Below are positions 1-7,862 of a stretch of DNA of 10,358 nt, piece by piece. Numbering within the stretch: the stretch's first letter is position 1; each line of letters begins with the position of its first letter. Under the pieces are notes generated by a model. It was given only the letters and a program-made list of their open reading frames with translations. It had not been told where the DNA came from and ran no database searches. Source of the DNA: Streptomyces roseochromogenus subsp. oscitans DS 12.976 (lineage in GTDB: Bacteria; Actinomycetota; Actinomycetes; Streptomycetales; Streptomycetaceae); the NCBI RefSeq assembly GCF_000497445.1, contig NZ_CM002285.1, forward strand, positions 5,987,744 to 5,998,101, in the 5' to 3' direction. The position numbers and the translations under genes are program-made.

Positions 1-894
1 GCTGTCGACCAGGGCGTCCGCGGGCTTGTGGGCGCGGAACATCGTCGCCGTACGCCGGAAGAACTCGGCCTTGTCGGCGGGCGGCAGCCGGTCCGGCTTG
101 GCCAGGATGTCCAGGCAGTGCTCGCCCATCTTGCGGTGCAGATACGGCCGCCAGTGCGCCAGTTCGGGGCGCTGCTCGACGAACGCGAAGACCCGCTCGT
201 ACTGGTCGAGGATGTCGAAGTGCTTGCGGCTGGTGGTGGACAGGATGCTGCCCTGCCGGCGCTGCCGGTAGTTCAGGCAGATCCGGTCCAGCGCGGCGAT
301 CCGCCGGGCGCTGAGCAGGACCGGGAAGGTCCAGGGGGTGTCCTCGTAGTAGCCGGGCGGGAAGGCGAAGCCCTCCGACTCCACGAACTCCCGCCGGTAG
401 ACCTTGTTCCACACCACCATCAGCAGGTCCAGGATCCGCGGGTAGGTGTCGACGGTGAACGTGTCCGGGCCGGCCTCGGCGAGCACCTCGGCCAGGACGT
501 TGCGCCGGGTGCCGCCCCACCAGTAGGTGCGCGCGTAGTCGAAGACCAGCACGTCCGGGTCCGCGGCCTCCGTCAGCCGGTCGGCTACGGCCCGCAGCGC
601 GCCCGGGGTGAGGGTGTCGTCGCTGTCCAGGAAGAACAGGTAGTCGCCGGTGGCGTGCGGCATACCCGCGTTACGGGCCCGGCCGAGGCCCACGTTCTCC
701 GGCAGGTGCAGCGCCCGCACGCGCGGGTCACGGGCGGCGTACTCGTCGAGGATCGCGCCGCAGCCGTCCGGGGAGCGGTCGTCCACGGCGATCAGCTCGA
801 AGTCGCCGAAGGACTGCGACAGCACCGAGTCGAGGCACTCGCGCAGAAAGCCCTGCACCTGGAAACAGGGCACGATCAGACTGAAGCGGGGCAC
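1..894 (-). CDS. GT2 glycosyltransferase, probable fused CDP-glycerol glycerophosphotransferase (3' end cut by window)
   Basis: The first 298 codons are visible; the reading frame is open to base 1 and the C-terminus lies outside the window. The N-terminus MPRFSLIVPC begins a family 2 GT-A glycosyltransferase domain (about residues 1-220). It has the nucleotide-sugar/metal DxD motif at D90-S91-D92 in FFLDSDD, the GLGRARNAGM segment, a WNK motif, the ED motif in GYYEDTPW and the YRQRRQGS segment. It is much closer to the glycosyltransferase half of the gene at 3243-5480 than to its direct upstream neighbour. By that similarity a CDP-glycerol glycerophosphotransferase half probably follows, but this is inference because it cannot be seen. 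The start is GTG at 894, supported by a GAGGAG ribosome site and by alignment with the paralogues. The gap to the upstream stop codon is only 6 bases, so it is almost certainly co-transcribed and translationally close-coupled. The likely role is cell-wall glycopolymer synthesis on the cytoplasmic face of the membrane; the sugar donor cannot be told from sequence. Confidence 0.85.
   Translation of the reverse strand, partial: MPRFSLIVPCFQVQGFLRECLDSVLSQSFGDFELIAVDDRSPDGCGAILDEYAARDPRVRALHLPENVGLGRARNAGMPHATGDYLFFLDSDDTLTPGALRAVADRLTEAADPDVLVFDYARTYWWGGTRRNVLAEVLAEAGPDTFTVDTYPRILDLLMVVWNKVYRREFVESEGFAFPPGYYEDTPWTFPVLLSARRIAALDRICLNYRQRRQGSILSTTSRKHFDILDQYERVFAFVEQRPELAHWRPYLHRKMGEHCLDILAKPDRLPPADKAEFFRRTATMFRAHKPADALVDS
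320..372. repeat. Near-identical 53-base patch shared with 4906-4958
   Basis: This segment of the truncated paralogue matches 4906-4958 of the first paralogue at 52 of 53 bases; the only difference is at base 355 (g versus c). It encodes the PPGYYEDTPWTFPV region holding the ED motif of the glycosyltransferase domain. Identity at silent positions goes beyond what protein conservation requires, although strong GC3 bias reduces the number of free choices. It could mark recent duplication or gene conversion. Confidence 0.75.
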
Positions 895-900
895 GGCGGG

Positions 901-3105
901 TCAACTCCTCACGAGGGTCGCGGGCGCGGGGACGCGGTCCGCGAGCGGGATCACCGGCGGCAGCGCCTGAGCCGGCTCGCCGAGCAGCACGCGCCGTACG
1001 ACCCGCTCGGCGGCCCGCCCGTCGTCGAACTCGCAGAACCGCTCCCGGAACGCGGCCCGCAGCGCCGTGGCCTCCGCGCCCGCGTACGAGCCGTCGCGGA
1101 AGACGGCCGCCAGCTCCTGAGGGGTGCGCGCCACCAGGCCGGGCGGCTCGGCCATCAGATCGAAGTAGACGCCCCGCGTCTCCCGGTAGACGTCCCAGTC
1201 GTCGGCGTACACGACGATCGGCCGGTCCAGGTTGGCGTAGTCGAACATGATCGACGAGTAGTCGGTGACCAGCGCGTCGGCGGCCAGGCACACGTCCTCC
1301 GAGGAGCGGTGCGCGGTCACATCGATGATTCGGTTGACGCGGCCGTCGCTGCGGCCGGGCCCCCGGTCGTAGAAGTAATGGGCACGCAGCAGGACCACGA
1401 CGTCCTCGCCCGCCGCGTCGCAGAACGCCTCCAGGTCCAGGCCGGGTTCGAAGCCGGTGTGGTGGTCGCGGTGGGTCGGCGCGTACAGCACGGCTGTCGT
1501 GCCCTCCGGGACGCCCAGCTCCCGCCGGATGCGCGCCACGTCCTCGCCGGTCGCCGTGTAGTAGACGTCGTTGCGCGGATAGCCGTACTCCAGGTGCTCG
1601 TAGGAGCCGGGGAAGGCGCGCTCCCACATCTGGGTGGAGTGCCGGTTGGCGGAGAGGTTGAAGTCCCAGCGGTCCACCCGGCCCAGCAGCCTGGTGTAGC
1701 TGCCCGACTGGGCGGCCACCACCGGATATGTCGACTGGTCCACGCCCATCGTCTTCAGCGGGGTGCCGTGCTGGGTCTGCAGGTGGATGCTGCCGGGCCG
1801 CTTGACGACTCCCTCGGCGAAGTTGGCGTTGTTGATCAGGTACGTGGCGCGGGCCAGCACCTCCCAGGAGCGGCGGGAGCCGATCACCGCGTAGTCCACG
1901 TCCTTCGGCATCGCGTGCGCCTGGTCGGCCTCGACCAGGAACACCGAGCGCAGGTGCGGGGCGAGTTCGCGGGCCTTGGCGTGGATCGCGGCCGGGTTGC
2001 AGGCATAGCCCCGGCCCCAGTAGGCGCAGTACACGGCCAGCTCGGGGTCGAGCGGGCGGCGCAGGCCGACGGTGTAGCGCAGCCGGTTGCGCACCGCGTG
2101 CGGGCGGGGCAGCCGCTCGGTGGCCCTGGCGGTCACCTGGTTGGCGCCGCGCAGCCCGCGGAAGGCGGTGTACGCGCCGGTCGCCAGCAGCCGGTGCTGC
2201 ACGCCCAGGCTGCCGCCCGGCGCCCGGTAGCCCTGCGGCCGGTGGCGCCGGTAGAGGCGGGCCGCGCGGCGGAAGAACGCCCGGTGCCCGGACGGCAGCC
2301 GCTCCGGCCGGGACGCCGTCTTCAGCACGGCGGTGAACAGCTGCTCGAACAGCGGCCTGACCCGGTCGGCGGGCAGCGCGCGCTCGGCGGCCCGGGTCAG
2401 CACCAGGTCCACCTGGTCGAGCACGGCGTGCTGGTGTGGCCCCGGCAGATGGAGCCGGCTGCCCTGCCGGCGCAGCCGGTGCCGTACGACGACCCGGCGC
2501 AGCACCGCGATCCGGCCGGCCGCGACGGTGGTCAGCCCGCCCCAGCCGAGGTCGGTGAAGTGGCTGTCGGGGAAGGTGAGTTCGTGTTCGGTGAGGAAGC
2601 CGCGGCGGTAGACCGCGCTCCACGCCGGGAGCTGGACGCCGGTCAGCTCCGGCAGCTCGGCCGGGGCGAAGGCGCCCTCGGGGGCCTTCGCCAGCAGGGG
2701 CGCGGCCGGGTTGCTGGGCTCGCCCTCCCACCACGGGGCGCGTTCGTGCTCGGCATAGAGCACGTCCACGCAGGCGGTCTCGGTCAGCCGGGCGTCCAGC
2801 GCGGCGAGCGCGCCCGGCAGCAGCAGGTCGTCGCCGTCGAGGAACAGCACATACGCTCCGGTCGCCGCCCGCATCCCGGCGTTGCGCGCCCCGCTCAGAC
2901 CGGCGGACGGCGGCGAGTCGACCGGGGTCACGCGGCAGTCCCGCTCCATGAATCCGGCGGCCACCTCGGCGGCCGGGGAGTCGGGGGCGTCGCAGACCGG
3001 GATCAGCTGCAGATCGCCGAAGGACTGGCCGAGAACCGAGTCCAGTGCCAGGGACAGCCGGGCGGTCACCCCATGGCAGGGGACGATGATGCTGAAGCGG
3101 GGCAT
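901..3105 (-). CDS. Bifunctional GT2 glycosyltransferase / CDP-glycerol glycerophosphotransferase (TagF-like), divergent GT2 half
   Basis: A 734-residue two-domain protein starting at ATG 3105 (MPRFSIIVPC), with a modest purine-rich ribosome site (GAGAG) 6 bases upstream. Residues 1 to about 220 are a GT-A family 2 domain with DGDD at 90-93 and RRQGS at 212-216. The ED motif of its paralogues is replaced by TD (T184, D185) and WNK by WSA (162-164), so its donor, acceptor or activity may differ. A basic helical linker (about 265-350) leads to a CDP-glycerol glycerophosphotransferase domain (about 355-705). That domain has HGTPLK with H446, GYPRND (508-513), APTHRD (542-547), RAH with H576 and DYSS (615-618). 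These are the hallmark motifs of TagF/TagB enzymes, which move glycerol-phosphate from CDP-glycerol onto a wall-polymer precursor. From memory, the two histidines correspond to the catalytic pair of Staphylococcus epidermidis TagF. The domain therefore looks catalytically complete. The gene sits second in a three-paralogue run, 137 bases after the preceding one. The exact polymer is unknown. Confidence 0.92.
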   Translation of the reverse strand: MPRFSIIVPCHGVTARLSLALDSVLGQSFGDLQLIPVCDAPDSPAAEVAAGFMERDCRVTPVDSPPSAGLSGARNAGMRAATGAYVLFLDGDDLLLPGALAALDARLTETACVDVLYAEHERAPWWEGEPSNPAAPLLAKAPEGAFAPAELPELTGVQLPAWSAVYRRGFLTEHELTFPDSHFTDLGWGGLTTVAAGRIAVLRRVVVRHRLRRQGSRLHLPGPHQHAVLDQVDLVLTRAAERALPADRVRPLFEQLFTAVLKTASRPERLPSGHRAFFRRAARLYRRHRPQGYRAPGGSLGVQHRLLATGAYTAFRGLRGANQVTARATERLPRPHAVRNRLRYTVGLRRPLDPELAVYCAYWGRGYACNPAAIHAKARELAPHLRSVFLVEADQAHAMPKDVDYAVIGSRRSWEVLARATYLINNANFAEGVVKRPGSIHLQTQHGTPLKTMGVDQSTYPVVAAQSGSYTRLLGRVDRWDFNLSANRHSTQMWERAFPGSYEHLEYGYPRNDVYYTATGEDVARIRRELGVPEGTTAVLYAPTHRDHHTGFEPGLDLEAFCDAAGEDVVVLLRAHYFYDRGPGRSDGRVNRIIDVTAHRSSEDVCLAADALVTDYSSIMFDYANLDRPIVVYADDWDVYRETRGVYFDLMAEPPGLVARTPQELAAVFRDGSYAGAEATALRAAFRERFCEFDDGRAAERVVRRVLLGEPAQALPPVIPLADRVPAPATLVRS
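905..910 (-). promoter_or_regulatory. Ribosome binding site fixing the GTG start at 894
   Basis: The minus strand reads GAGGAG here, 10 bases before the GTG at 894 and just inside the last codons of the upstream gene, whose TGA is at 901-903. No other start with a comparable site lies near the conserved PRFS N-terminus, so this site decides the non-ATG start. Confidence 0.6.
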
Positions 3106-3242: not shown

Positions 3243-5480
3243 TCACCGCATCTCGGTGACGGGGAAGGAACCGGAAGGTTGCGGCACGGTGGCCAGCGGG
3301 GAGCGCGCGCAGGCCGACGGCACCGGGTTGCGCTCCACGAGCGGCACCACCGGCGGCAGACCGTGCTCGCCCCGCACCACATGCCGTACGACCCGCTCGG
3401 CGGCGCGTCCGTCGTCGTACGGGCAGAACCGTTCGCGGAACGCCGCCCGCAGCTGCGCCGAGCGCGAGCCGCGCCAGTGGCCGGTCGCGAAGATGTCGAT
3501 CAGCTCGTCCTCGGTGCGCGCGACCGCGCCCGGCGGGAAGGCGCGCAGGTCGAAGTAGGTCCCGCGGGCCGCACGGTAGGCCTGCCAGTCGCCGGTGTGC
3601 ACCACGATCGGCCGGTCCAGGCCGGCGTAGTCGAACATGAGCGACGAGTAGTCGGTGAGGAGGGCGTCCGAGGCCAGGCAGAGGGATGCCACGCTCGGGT
3701 GGCCGCCGACGTCGATGACCCGGTTGCCCGTGCCGAGGGGGCCGCCGCGGGTGGGGTGGGGGCGGGCCAGGATCACGAAGCCCGGGCCGAGCCGGCGCGC
3801 GATCCGCTCCAGGTCCAGCGGCGGGTGCTGGGTGCGCAGATGGTCGCGGAAGGTCGGCGCGTACAGGATCGCCACCGCGCCCTGAGGGATGCCCAGCAAC
3901 CCGCGTAGCCGGGTCACGTCCGCCGAGGTCGCCCGCTGGAAGACGTCGTTGCGCGGGGCGCCGTACTCCAGCGTCGTGTAGCGGCCCGGGAAGACCCGCT
4001 CCCAGGTCAGGGTCGAGTGCCGGTTGCCGGACAGGACGAGGTCCCACTGGTCGACCCCGCGCAGCAGCTCCGCGAAGTCGGTGCCGTGGGCCGCCGCCGG
4101 GTGTTCCCGCAGGTCCAGACCCATGTGCTTGAGCGGGGTGCCCTGCCGGGTCTGGATCACGATCTGCTCGCGCCGCTTGCGCAGCCGCCGGTCCAGCATG
4201 TCGTCGGTGACCAGGTACTTGGAGCGGGCCAGCGCCGTCCAGTAGGCGGCGGTGCCGGGCCGCAGCCGGCGTGGGCCGGGCGGGACCGTGTGCTGGTGCT
4301 CGGGCCGGGCGATCCACGCGGTCCGCACCTGCGGGGCATGGGTGCGGAACGCCTCCTCCAGGGCGCCCGGATCGCCGCCGTGGCCGCGGCCCGCACCGGC
4401 GGTGAACACCGCCCGGTCGGCGCGGACGGGCAGCCGCAGCTGGATCCGGTAGTGCAGCCGCAGCGTGCCGGAGCGCACGGCGCGGGCCAGCTTCACCACC
4501 GCCTTCAGCGTGCGCCGGTGCACGGCCGAGGTCAGCTGGAGCGCCCGGAAGGTGCGGTGCAGGCCGAAGCGGACCAGGATGTTCCGCCGCCGCATCCGGA
4601 TTCCCGGGACGCGGTAGCGGCGGTAGTGGGCGCGCGCCCGGCGCAGGAACTCGCCGTGACTCCCGCGCGGCAGCCGGCCCCGGTTGGTGAACACCGTCGC
4701 ACAGTGGTCGACCATGACGCGGAACAACTCCGGCCGCCACCGTGCCAGTTCGGGGTGCTGCTCGACATACGCGAACACCCGGTCGTACTGCTTGAACAGA
4801 TCGAAGTGCTGCGGGCTGGTGCTGCCGAGGATGCTGCCCTGCCGGCGCTGCCGGTAGTGCACGCACACCCGGTCCAGGGTGGCGATCGACCCCGCCGTCA
4901 TCAGCACCGGGAAGGTCCAGGGGGTGTCCTCGTAGTAGCCCGGCGGGAAGGCGAAGCCGTGCTCCTCGACGAACTCCCGCCGGTAGGCCTTGTTCCACGC
5001 GACCATCAGCACCCTGAGCATCTCCGGCCGGTCCTCCAGCCGGAACGGCGCCGGGCCCTGCTCGGTCAGCTGTGCGGCGAGATGGTTGCGCTCCTCCCGG
5101 CCGTCCCAGTACGTGCGCGCGTAGTCGTACATCAGGACATCCGGCTCGCCGGACTCCTTGATCCGGTCGGCGATCGCGTGCAGCGCGCCCGGGGTGAGCG
5201 TGTCGTCGCCGTCCAGGAAGACCAGATAGTCGCCGCTCGCCTCGGCCATCCCCGCGTTCCTGGCCCGGCCGAGCCCCTGGTTCGTGGCCAGGTGCACGGC
5301 CCGCACACGCGCGTCACGGGCCGCGTACTCGTCGATGATCTCGCCGCATGCATCCGGGGAGCAGTCGTCCACGGCGATCAGTTCCAGATCGGGATACGAC
5401 TGCCCGAGCACCGAGTCCAGGCACGCGGAGAGATACGCCTGGACCTTGTACGCGGGGACAATGACACTGAACCTGGGCAA
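3243..5480 (-). CDS. GT2 glycosyltransferase / CDP-glycerol glycerophosphotransferase fusion with His-to-Gln change in the catalytic motif
   Basis: A 745-residue protein from TTG 5480. This start aligns exactly with the MPRFS N-termini of both paralogues; the in-frame ATG at 5564 would add 28 unconserved residues and run through the intergenic hairpin. Residues 1 to about 220 form an intact-looking GT-A family 2 domain: DGDD (90-93), WNK (162-164), ED (184-185) in GYYEDTPW, and RRQGS (212-216). A strongly basic linker (about 290-350) may hold the protein at the membrane, as in TagF-like enzymes. The C-terminal glycerophosphotransferase domain (about 355-700) keeps APTFRD (541-546), RPH with H575 and DYSS (610-613). 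The HGTP motif, however, reads RQGTPLKHMG, with Q446 in place of the catalytic His; H452 lies six residues on. That half may be inactive, use a different substrate or play a non-catalytic role. It is first of three tandem paralogues. The C-terminal tail is longer than in its neighbour but shares an LPPVxPL motif. Confidence 0.9.
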   Translation of the reverse strand: MPRFSVIVPAYKVQAYLSACLDSVLGQSYPDLELIAVDDCSPDACGEIIDEYAARDARVRAVHLATNQGLGRARNAGMAEASGDYLVFLDGDDTLTPGALHAIADRIKESGEPDVLMYDYARTYWDGREERNHLAAQLTEQGPAPFRLEDRPEMLRVLMVAWNKAYRREFVEEHGFAFPPGYYEDTPWTFPVLMTAGSIATLDRVCVHYRQRRQGSILGSTSPQHFDLFKQYDRVFAYVEQHPELARWRPELFRVMVDHCATVFTNRGRLPRGSHGEFLRRARAHYRRYRVPGIRMRRRNILVRFGLHRTFRALQLTSAVHRRTLKAVVKLARAVRSGTLRLHYRIQLRLPVRADRAVFTAGAGRGHGGDPGALEEAFRTHAPQVRTAWIARPEHQHTVPPGPRRLRPGTAAYWTALARSKYLVTDDMLDRRLRKRREQIVIQTRQGTPLKHMGLDLREHPAAAHGTDFAELLRGVDQWDLVLSGNRHSTLTWERVFPGRYTTLEYGAPRNDVFQRATSADVTRLRGLLGIPQGAVAILYAPTFRDHLRTQHPPLDLERIARRLGPGFVILARPHPTRGGPLGTGNRVIDVGGHPSVASLCLASDALLTDYSSLMFDYAGLDRPIVVHTGDWQAYRAARGTYFDLRAFPPGAVARTEDELIDIFATGHWRGSRSAQLRAAFRERFCPYDDGRAAERVVRHVVRGEHGLPPVVPLVERNPVPSACARSPLATVPQPSGSFPVTEMR
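4906..4958. repeat. Near-identical 53-base patch shared with 320-372
   Basis: Counterpart of the segment at 320-372, matching at 52 of 53 bases in the same orientation and the same protein position (the ED motif region of the glycosyltransferase domain). Confidence 0.75.
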
Positions 5481-5546: not shown

Positions 5547-5581
5547 TACGGCCCGTAGGGCCATACGGGCTACGGGCCGTA
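5547..5581 (-). terminator. Strong hairpin downstream of the sugar importer operon
   Basis: A perfect 12-base stem (5547-5558 with 5570-5581, tacggcccgtag/ctacgggccgta) closes an 11-base loop, 30 bases after the stop of the MalG-type permease. A smaller alternative stem (5552-5557 with 5564-5569, cccgta/tacggg) overlaps it, so the two folds exclude each other. No T-tract follows on the minus strand, as is common for streptomycete terminators. It most likely ends or attenuates importer transcription before the wall-polymer genes. I see no convincing -35/-10 pair between it and the TTG at 5480. Confidence 0.6.
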
Positions 5582-5610: not shown

Positions 5611-6519
5611 CTACTTGACCGCGCCCGCCATCACCCCGGACACGAACTGCCGCTGGAACGCGAAGAACACGGCCAGCGGGATCACCATGGAGATGAACGC
5701 GCCGGGCGCCAGCACGTCGATGTTGTTGCCGAACTGCCGTACCTGCGTCTGCAGCGCGACCGTGATCGGCTGGGTGCCCGACTTGGTGAACACCAGCGCG
5801 ACCAGCATGTCGTTCCACACCCACAGGAACTGGAAGATGCCGAGGCTCGCGATCGCCGGCCCGCCGAGCGGCATCACCACCCGTGCGAACAGCCGCAGTT
5901 CACCGGCGCCGTCGAGCCGGGCCGCCTCCAGCAGCTCACGCGGGATCTCCGCGAAGAAGTTCCGCAGCAGGAACACCGCGAACGGCAGACCGAAGCCGGT
6001 GTGGAACAGGATCACCCCGAGGATCGTCCCGAACAGGCCGATCTTGCCGAACAGTTCGGCGATCGGGATCAGCGCCACCTGCACCGGCACCACCAGCAGA
6101 CTCACCACGCCCAGGAACCACCAGTCCCGGCCCGGGAACTCCATCCACGCGAACGCGTAGCCCGCGAGCGAGCCGACCACGACGACCAGCACCGTCGCCG
6201 GGACCGTGATCAGCACGGTGTTCCAGAGGGAGTGGGTGATGTCGCCGTTCTCCAGGAGCTTCTGATAGCTGTCGAACGTCAGCTGGGACGGCTTGGTGAA
6301 CACCTTCCACCAGCCGCTGGTGCTCATGTCCTGCGGCGAGCGCAGCGAGGAGATGAGCAGACCGGCCGTCGGCACCAGCCAGAACAGGCCCACGACGATC
6401 AGGAACACCCGGACCAGACCGCCGCTCAGCCTCTCGGCGATCTTCGCACCGAGCGACTGCCGCGCCTTCACCGCCTGGACGGGGCCGGCTTCCCTGACAC
6501 TCCCGGCGGTCGCCGTCAT
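5611..6519 (-). CDS. Carbohydrate ABC transporter permease, MalG type
   Basis: A 302-residue inner-membrane protein of normal length for the binding-protein-dependent sugar permease family. About six hydrophobic segments are visible (near residues 35-58, 100-124, 133-155, 163-186, 222-243 and 272-290). The cytoplasmic EAA loop, which docks the ATPase, reads ELLEAARLDGAG (195-206), with E198-A199-A200 and the conserved G204, followed by VVMPLGGP. The C-terminal SGVMAGAVK is the usual MalG-like ending. The ATG at 6519 overlaps the TGA of the upstream permease (ATGA), and a GGGAGGT ribosome site (6526-6532) lies 7 bases before it, so the pair is translationally coupled. It should form the heterodimeric pore with the permease at 6516-7862. 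The longer open frame reaching 7401 is only a shadow of that gene. The substrate is probably an oligosaccharide, but its identity is unknown. Confidence 0.95.
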   Translation of the reverse strand: MTATAGSVREAGPVQAVKARQSLGAKIAERLSGGLVRVFLIVVGLFWLVPTAGLLISSLRSPQDMSTSGWWKVFTKPSQLTFDSYQKLLENGDITHSLWNTVLITVPATVLVVVVGSLAGYAFAWMEFPGRDWWFLGVVSLLVVPVQVALIPIAELFGKIGLFGTILGVILFHTGFGLPFAVFLLRNFFAEIPRELLEAARLDGAGELRLFARVVMPLGGPAIASLGIFQFLWVWNDMLVALVFTKSGTQPITVALQTQVRQFGNNIDVLAPGAFISMVIPLAVFFAFQRQFVSGVMAGAVK

Positions 6520-7862
6520 CGCCGCACCTCCCGCCTCAGCCGACGAACGTTGAACAGCACCACGGGAATCACCAGCACCAGCAACAGCACCGCGATCGCG
6601 CTCGCGACGCCCGGCTGGCCCTCCGCGAAGCCCTTGCGGTACAGCTCCAGGGCGAGCACGTTGGCGTCGGCCTGGGAGGAGCCCGGCGCGATGATGTAGA
6701 CGAGGTCGAACACCTTCAGCACGTTGATCATCAATGTGACGGTGACCACCGCGAGAACCGGCGCGAGCAGCGGCACGGTGACCTTGCGGAACACCTGCCA
6801 CTCGGTCGCGCCGTCCACCCGCGCCGCCTCCAGCAGCTCCCGGGGCACGCCCGCGAGCCCGGCCGCGATCAGCACCATCGCGAAGCCGGCCCACATCCAC
6901 ACATACGCCCCGATGACCGCCGGGGTGACCAGCGACGGGCCGAGCCACTCGACACCGTTGTACGGCTCCCTGAAGTTGCCTGCCGGAAGCCGCAGTCGAG
7001 CCCCGTCGGCGGACGCGGGCAGCGTGAAGGTGCCGTCGCCGGCCGCCTTGGTGGCGGCGACCACCTTGCCGTCCTTCACCGCCTCGATCCGCATCCCGGC
7101 ATAGCCCAGCTCGGACGGATCGGGCGCGCCGAGCCGCCCCACGCCCTTGCCGCGCGTGAAGTCCTGCCAGGTGGTGCCGGTGATCTTCCCCGGCTCCGGC
7201 TTGGCCGCCACGGCCTTCTTCGCACTGCCCGGCATCTGGTCCGGGGCGACGCCGACGAGGGGAAGGAGGACGGACTGACCGGCGTGCACGGTGGCCCTGG
7301 TGACGAAGCCGCCGTTCTGCGCGACGAGGGGCGACTCGCGGCCCGGGTGGGCCTTCGGGAACGCCGACGACTGCGCGAAGGTGTCGTGGACGCCCACCCA
7401 CACCGCGTTCGCGACGCCCTTGTGCGGATCCTGGTCGTACACCAGCCGGAAGATGATCCCGGCCGCCAGCATCGAGATCGCCATCGGCATGAAGACGACC
7501 AGCTTGAACGCCGTTCCCCAGCGCACCCGTTCGGTCAGCACCGCGAAGACCAGACCGAGCGCGGTGGAGACCGTGGGTGCGAACACCACCCAGATGACAT
7601 TGTTCTTCAGGGCGGTGCGGATCCCGTCGTCCGTGAAGAGGGTCTTGTAGTTGTCGACGCCGACGAAACCGTCGCCGGAGGCGTTGGAGAAGCTGCGGAT
7701 GACCGAGTACCCGATCGGGTAGACCACGAGCGCGCCGAGCAGCACCAGGGCGGGCAGCAGGAACAGCACTGCCACGGTCTTCCGGGTGCCGGTCACGCTC
7801 CTGCGACTGCGGGGTGCGGCGGGACCCGGTGGGGCCCCGGCCGCCGTTGCCGCCGACGCCAT
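6516..7862 (-). CDS. Carbohydrate ABC transporter permease, MalF type, with large extracellular insertion
   Basis: A 448-residue permease, roughly 140-150 residues longer than usual for the family. After a cytoplasmic Ala/Pro-rich N-terminus, transmembrane segments lie near 30-53, 85-110 and 118-141. A long hydrophilic region (about 142-310) follows, then segments near 311-338, 364-390 and 418-437. The EAA loop is intact: ELLEAARVDGAT (342-353) with E345-A346-A347, then VPLLAP. By the usual topology the 142-310 region lies outside the membrane between TM3 and TM4, the same place as the P2 loop of E. coli MalF, which contacts the binding protein. Part of it (about 253-296) alternates like a small beta-sandwich: RIEAVKDGKVV, then GDGTFTLP, then ARLRLPAG. 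ATG 7862 follows the binding-protein stop by 7 bases; a GGGAG lies 11 bases upstream of it. It should be co-expressed with the binding protein and pair with the MalG-type permease. Confidence 0.94.
   Translation of the reverse strand: MASAATAAGAPPGPAAPRSRRSVTGTRKTVAVLFLLPALVLLGALVVYPIGYSVIRSFSNASGDGFVGVDNYKTLFTDDGIRTALKNNVIWVVFAPTVSTALGLVFAVLTERVRWGTAFKLVVFMPMAISMLAAGIIFRLVYDQDPHKGVANAVWVGVHDTFAQSSAFPKAHPGRESPLVAQNGGFVTRATVHAGQSVLLPLVGVAPDQMPGSAKKAVAAKPEPGKITGTTWQDFTRGKGVGRLGAPDPSELGYAGMRIEAVKDGKVVAATKAAGDGTFTLPASADGARLRLPAGNFREPYNGVEWLGPSLVTPAVIGAYVWMWAGFAMVLIAAGLAGVPRELLEAARVDGATEWQVFRKVTVPLLAPVLAVVTVTLMINVLKVFDLVYIIAPGSSQADANVLALELYRKGFAEGQPGVASAIAVLLLVLVIPVVLFNVRRLRREVRR

Follow-up and report, generated by a model that had tools for sequence, protein, structure and literature searches.

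Why should a Streptomyces gene encode a TagF-like phosphotransferase domain with intact motifs and a glutamine in place of the catalytic histidine? The question is raised by gene A in a stretch of 10,358 nucleotides from Streptomyces roseochromogenus subsp. oscitans DS 12.976 (contig NZ_CM002285.1, positions 5,987,744 to 5,998,101), referred to as the window at its full length. Five PF04464 domains were found in the 9.78-Mb genome, three of them in tandem in genes A, B and C, all on the minus strand. Gene A (3243..5480; 745 residues) fuses a GT2 domain of the GT-A type to a TagF-like PF04464 domain, and gene B (901..3105; 734 residues) fuses a diverged GT2 domain to an intact TagF-like domain. 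Gene C runs off the left edge of the window, and its first 298 codons (1..894) encode a GT2 domain with VDD, DSDD and ED motifs. On balance we consider it probable that these tandem bifunctional polymerases have undergone complementary losses, B acting as the phosphotransferase and A and C as glycosyltransferases.

On the minus strand gene A reads acc cgg CAG ggc acc ccg ctc aag cac atg ggt, in which CAG (bases 4145-4143; feature 4143..4145) encodes Gln446 of the 745-residue protein, whereas residue 446 of the 734-residue B protein is His (1768..1770). Codon and both proteins thus agree with the initial annotation, which had reported this difference. Its placement of the residue at the position of the TagF histidine was borne out as well. 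In a phmmer search against the PDB, Gln446 aligned gap-free to residue 444 of the teichoic acid polymerase TagF of S. epidermidis (PDB 3l7i-3l7m), a position occupied by His in 3l7i and by Asn in 3l7j-l, the entries titled H444N. The W-H-G of TagF corresponds to R-Q-G in A, H-Q-G in C and Q-H-G in B. His575 of A (3756..3758) aligned to TagF residue 584; the 3l7m sequence has Ala there, and the title of that entry reads H548A. The motifs PRND (residues 509-512), RPH (573-575) and DYSS (610-613; 3642..3653) had been described as intact and were all found, and Lys451 of GTPLK (4128..4130) is retained. The domain (3375..4454) matched PF04464 with 377.5 bits at a cut-off of 22.1, over profile positions 2-366 of 367, and structure prediction gave the Gln446 protein a fold that is TagF-like throughout. 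Gln is also found at this position in C, and two of the five PF04464 domains in the genome lack the His. Since the 15 proteins ranked closest behind the entry of the query itself carry Gln446, as do the related loci L009, L010 and L011, the residue is not an error and represents a real, inherited active-site change. In other genera, all 45 alignable domains (46 examined) had His; they belong to a class-wide sample of 83 domains from the stretches retrieved, among the matches listed.

The orthologues were surveyed in a main set made up of the window genome and the best 80 of 584 loci related to A (79 titled Streptomyces, one Kitasatospora). This set yielded 81 A, 75 B and 72 C genes, with all three present in 72 of the 81 loci. 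At the His444 position the A proteins showed H in 46, Q in 21, R in 5, A in 4, E in 2, D in 2 and T in 1. All 75 B proteins had His, and none of the 72 C proteins did (Q 60, R 9, L 2, E 1). The initial annotation had supposed that the domain of A is conserved without its base. That supposition does not stand: Gln446 is not a conserved residue of A, 46 of 81 orthologues carry His, which the initial annotation had itself named as a refutation, and the 120 best of 2977 matches to the TagF domain of A were made up of H 76, Q 30, R 8, D 3, T 2 and P 1. The site being variable, a specialised role resting on a conserved Gln was rejected for A. The initial interpretation is thus only partly supported. 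A fixed His-less, specialised domain fits C better, in which His is absent throughout and most other motif residues are kept; the 120 best of 5270 matches to the TagF domain of C had Q (104) or R (16) and never His. These protein match lists overlap with the genomes of the main set.

The Lys of GTPLK was present in all 75 B and in 71 of 72 C proteins; in A it was K in 51, G in 28 and A in 2 of 81. The equivalent of TagF His584 was found in 72/81 A, 75/75 B and 71/72 C. When six TagF motif residues were scored in the 81 A proteins, 35 had lost none, 24 one, 9 two, 3 three, 7 four and 3 five. The claim that the domain shows no decay therefore holds for the window protein, with its intact motifs and fold, but not for its relatives, in which up to five of the six residues are progressively lost. 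H452, which had been proposed to take over as the base, occurred alike in 41 of the 46 A orthologues with His446 and in 34 of the 35 without it, and was rejected as a substitute because its occurrence is independent of His446. In C, the second Ser of DYSS (residue 613) was Ala in 58/72, another frequent active-site change.

A second, wider sample, in which loci were not ranked by their similarity to A, gave the same picture. It drew on 101 Streptomyces genomes across the genus and on the same-genus genomes of the class-wide search, the loci being chosen, among the matches listed, on account of either a good match to C or adjacent GT2-TagF genes. The 39 loci comprised 31 triads, of which 8 proved identical to genomes sampled before, two loci in which only B and C were found, and six that were counted apart (four two-gene loci, a single gene and a hybrid). 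In the triads the A residue was H in 15, Q in 7, G, P and R in 2 each, and E, D and A in 1 each. His was present in 31/31 B and in 0/31 C (Q 25, R 6). In the two loci with B and C only, both B had His and the C residues were Gln and Leu, bringing the totals to 33/33 for B and 0/33 for C. In the two-gene loci (L144, L184, L185, L187), which were chosen by gene content, all eight genes had His together with the GT2 motifs.

The glycosyltransferase halves were compared with TarS, in which the E177A mutation leaves no activity and the base is proposed to be D178 (PMC5156392). TarS E177 and D178 align to E184 and D185 of the triad proteins. The alignable GT2 part of A (4803..5474) has its motifs intact, with D90, D92, D93, E184 and D185 matched to TarS (E184-D185 at 4926..4931). 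For C the counts refer to 71 of 72 genes, the interrupted C of the window genome being left out, and among the B genes one (L088) is truncated, with gaps in the GT2 columns. The ED motif had its Glu in 79/81 A and 71/71 C, and Thr in its place in 73/75 B (Thr184 in the window, 2554..2556). DxD was retained in 81/81 A, 71/71 C and 72-73 of 75 B; B further had D185 in 74/75 and kept D39. Combined with the state of the TagF His, the ED motif was not intact with His in all 75 B (one a gap) and intact without His in 71 C, and A was divided into 44 intact with His, 35 intact without His and 2 changed with His. Not one of the 227 proteins lacked both the intact ED motif and the TagF His. Among the 120 best of 924 matches to the GT2 domain of B, a list that also overlaps with the main set, Thr184 was found in 119/120, DxD in 120/120 and His446 in 119/119 alignable proteins.

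The rates, and a tree built from B and C only, were analysed in the 67 of 81 loci in which all three genes were complete enough. On this tree, the His/non-His state of A changes nine times by parsimony, and seven of these changes are forced by well-supported branches; with all residues considered together there are 18 changes. In the tree of TagF domains, His is absent from the whole C clade (support 100/100). Of the eight two-gene proteins, three attach at the base of A (100/100); the remaining five, which also bear His, lie in the unresolved part that gives rise to B and C. From these trees it is most likely that His is ancestral and was lost early in C and repeatedly in A. The ratio of mean amino-acid distances, TagF over GT2, was 1.35 for A (bootstrap 1.29-1.43), 0.78 for B (0.74-0.82) and 0.90 for C (0.84-0.96). 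Relative ratios of nonsynonymous to synonymous change (dN/dS) for GT2 and TagF, in this order, were 0.28 and 0.40 in A, 0.41 and 0.34 in B, and 0.43 and 0.36 in C. The rates thus mirror the complementary motif states of the three genes. Within A, the relative, first-order dN/dS of the TagF half was 0.35 among His genes and 0.44 among non-His genes, and that of the GT2 half rose too, from 0.25 to 0.31. With the motif sites removed, the distance of A to the outgroup was 0.410 (non-His) and 0.378 (His) for TagF and 0.324 in both groups for GT2; a plain rank test, which ignores descent, gave p ~7e-10 for TagF and 0.60 for GT2.

These observations can be brought together as follows. A, B and C would derive from polymerases of two functions, a GT-A (GT2) glycosyltransferase in one half and a TagF-like phosphotransferase in the other, and the work would since have been divided within the tandem set. 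B would have kept its phosphotransferase site while its GT2 half drifted and lost the ED Glu; C would have lost the phosphotransferase His early and kept the GT2 site; and A would have kept the GT2 site, its phosphotransferase half being lost repeatedly across Streptomyces, in the lineage of the window by a change of His to Gln. The proteins would probably still cooperate, A and C adding the sugar or sugars and B the phospho-unit to one chain. In A and C, the TagF-like domains, once spent, may stay as folded modules for acceptor binding or for docking and chain handling. The TagF-like part of A is then best read as an eroding phosphotransferase half, a pseudo-TagF with a retained fold, in a working glycosyltransferase.

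The assignment of phosphotransfer to B and of glycosyl transfer to A and C, and the docking role, follow precedents from Cps1B and Cps7D, TarS and Cps7A. The capsule polymerases CslB, Cps1B, Cps12B and Ccs2 likewise have a GT-A half followed by a TagF-like half and use two active sites on one chain (PMC5974469). They hold both sites in one protein, whereas here natural losses are spread across tandem paralogues. Gram-negative TagF-like polymerases no longer make polymer when Ala replaces either of the two catalytic His residues or is placed at the glycosyltransferase site; in Cps1B (GT-A/TagF) and Cps7D (TagF/GT-B), wild-type levels return once mutants with complementary single-domain defects are combined (PMC5974469). 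For the triad, the residues, the recurrent change, the complementary rates and motif states and the retained predicted fold of A are observed; we infer that the changed sites of the triad have lost activity, that the proteins complement each other in trans and that they associate physically. The transition transferase Cps7A resembles A and C in its TagF-like fold without a His444 equivalent, but is a single domain with 15% identity to TagF and is active as a priming enzyme; its catalytically inactive mutants still allow long chains to be made by the polymerase (PMC11666461). This is a precedent for the scaffold role that the initial annotation had suggested as one option, and such a role may apply here.

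Several points weigh against a complementary division of labour. It is not complete everywhere, because A with His is common (46/81). The non-His state need not mean inactivity, since Cps7A, with Tyr where TagF has His444, actively transfers glycerol phosphate (PMC11666461). Lys451 and His575 in C (71/72 each) exceed the needs of a dead domain, and with most of the pocket kept, the TagF-like half of C may bind or even act on something. The GT2 half of B may have a new donor rather than be dead, as D39, DxD and D185 are kept and Thr184 is almost invariant. The model of A is weak right after the catalytic loop, with predicted local distance difference test scores (pLDDT) below 50 at residues 452-466, so that Gln446 and H452 are not placeable in the pocket. 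Synonymous sites are close to saturation, which makes the dN/dS values relative only. The contrast in rate between His and non-His genes is not significant when descent is considered: of seven independent pairs about two go with it, none against and five are tied, numbers with which the test cannot reach significance. No A was found in L178 and L181, two of the 33 loci that contain B and C. Individual loci also depart from the pattern: the only such gene of L145 is an A with Tyr446 and an altered ED motif, L170 has an A frame without the GT2 part, and one Streptomyces genome (L147) has two non-His domains outside any triad. L186 has an A with Asn446 beside a B/C hybrid with both sites altered. 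In this hybrid gene a GT2 half of the B type is fused to a TagF half of the C type (Gln446, Arg575).

A more far-reaching form of this division of labour is possible, in our estimate, rather than probable. The tandem copies of a two-site enzyme in this wall-glycopolymer locus, having lost complementary active sites, may be an evolved split polymerase of three proteins that works only in trans as a complex, the dead TagF-like domains serving as chain-handling or assembly modules. A corollary that we hold just as tentatively is that the dead domain of C would be old and fixed and that of A in the course of repeated loss. Plain relaxed decay, in which the TagF half of A is redundant and neutrally lost, without any partnership between the three proteins, and persists only through its fusion to a useful GT2 domain, appears rather unlikely. 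The recurrent change to many residues, the further motif losses in A and the faster evolution of TagF in non-His A genes would all be expected from it. However, the domain is still under constraint: no A of the 81 is shorter than 700 residues. In non-His A genes the relative dN/dS of the TagF half stands at ~0.44, and the Gln446 protein has retained its predicted fold. We regard it as doubtful that the His-less domains are active on another substrate or by another chemistry, with Gln or Arg substituting for the base; priming transferases would be one example. In C the persistence of Lys451 and His575 and the restriction to Gln or Arg in 69/72 proteins and in all 120 best of 5270 matches argue for such an activity, as does the transfer of glycerol phosphate by Cps7A. 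It is opposed by the variability of the A residue (H, Q, R, A, E, D, T, P or G), which is accompanied by losses of other active-site residues, and by Cps1B and Cps7D, which give no polymer with Ala at the equivalent His (PMC5974469). A sequencing error or strain-specific change, finally, has practically no probability and is refuted by the Gln of the orthologues.

The donor is uncertain, as no TagD was found. The profile TIGR01518 for TagD-type glycerol-phosphate cytidylyltransferases had no match in the window genome and none above its cut-off in 61 Streptomyces, with weaker matches in 41 of the 61; the cut-off is strict, being passed in 2 of 14 control genomes, and the profile covers the TagD-type synthase, others being possible. 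CDP-glycerol-type transferases are nevertheless annotated, and most triad proteins in the match lists carry the homology-based name bifunctional glycosyltransferase/CDP-glycerol glycerophosphotransferase. Glycerol-phosphate polymerases have W-H-G and hexose-phosphate transferases Q-H-G (PMC11666461), and the motif of B is Q-H-G. The wall of S. coelicolor contains a galactosyl-N-acetylglucosamine phosphate polymer as a minor component (PMC7831098). Taken together, motif and wall polymer make a hexose-phosphate product possible, a lead rather than a result.

Gene A probably starts with the TTG at 5480, which gives a product of 745 residues, the length also seen in close homologues; an alternative in-frame ATG at 5564 would lengthen it by 28 residues. 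In gene C, a run of 736 N (L007:3509-4244) separates the GT2 from the TagF-like half, and the window begins directly after this run. The TagF-like half (HQGTPLK) lies past it, outside the window, and reads HIHTHQGTPLKYMG. A fourth GT2-TagF copy is found ~15 kb away (gene L006:7416-9644; domain at contig positions 5973499-5974593), with His446 and an intact TagF site and with HAKD instead of DxD in its GT2 half. It is flanked by two ATP-binding cassette (ABC) transporter genes, an epimerase gene and further GT2 genes, and three relatives (L148, L149, L150) show the same kind of DxD loss. The fifth copy, located at 9.06 Mb, retains at both sites the catalytic residues that were checked. Within the window, 6516-7862 on the minus strand encodes an ABC permease of 448 residues, with a Pfam match only at residues 305-436 and a long, unusual stretch between the first helices and the core.

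From gene order (NAD-glutamate dehydrogenase and Ser/Thr kinase neighbours) rather than sequence comparison, we take SCO2981-SCO2983 and SCO2997 of S. coelicolor to be probably the same locus. These four genes are listed as wall teichoic acid glycosyltransferases (PMC3937824). Searches of the open-access literature on His-less TagF domains and on the function of SCO2981-SCO2983 gave, among the papers listed, no description of this pattern, which does not show that none is in print.

If the division of labour holds, the name bifunctional would be wrong for at least two of the three triad proteins, one half of each being a pseudo-enzyme. The triad would be a natural counterpart of the trans-complementation achieved with engineered mutants of capsule polymerases (PMC5974469). 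Intact relatives, partial losers and full losers would all still be living, so that the transition could be observed across living species. It would also predict which gene makes the phosphodiester bond in the wall polymers of an industrially important genus.
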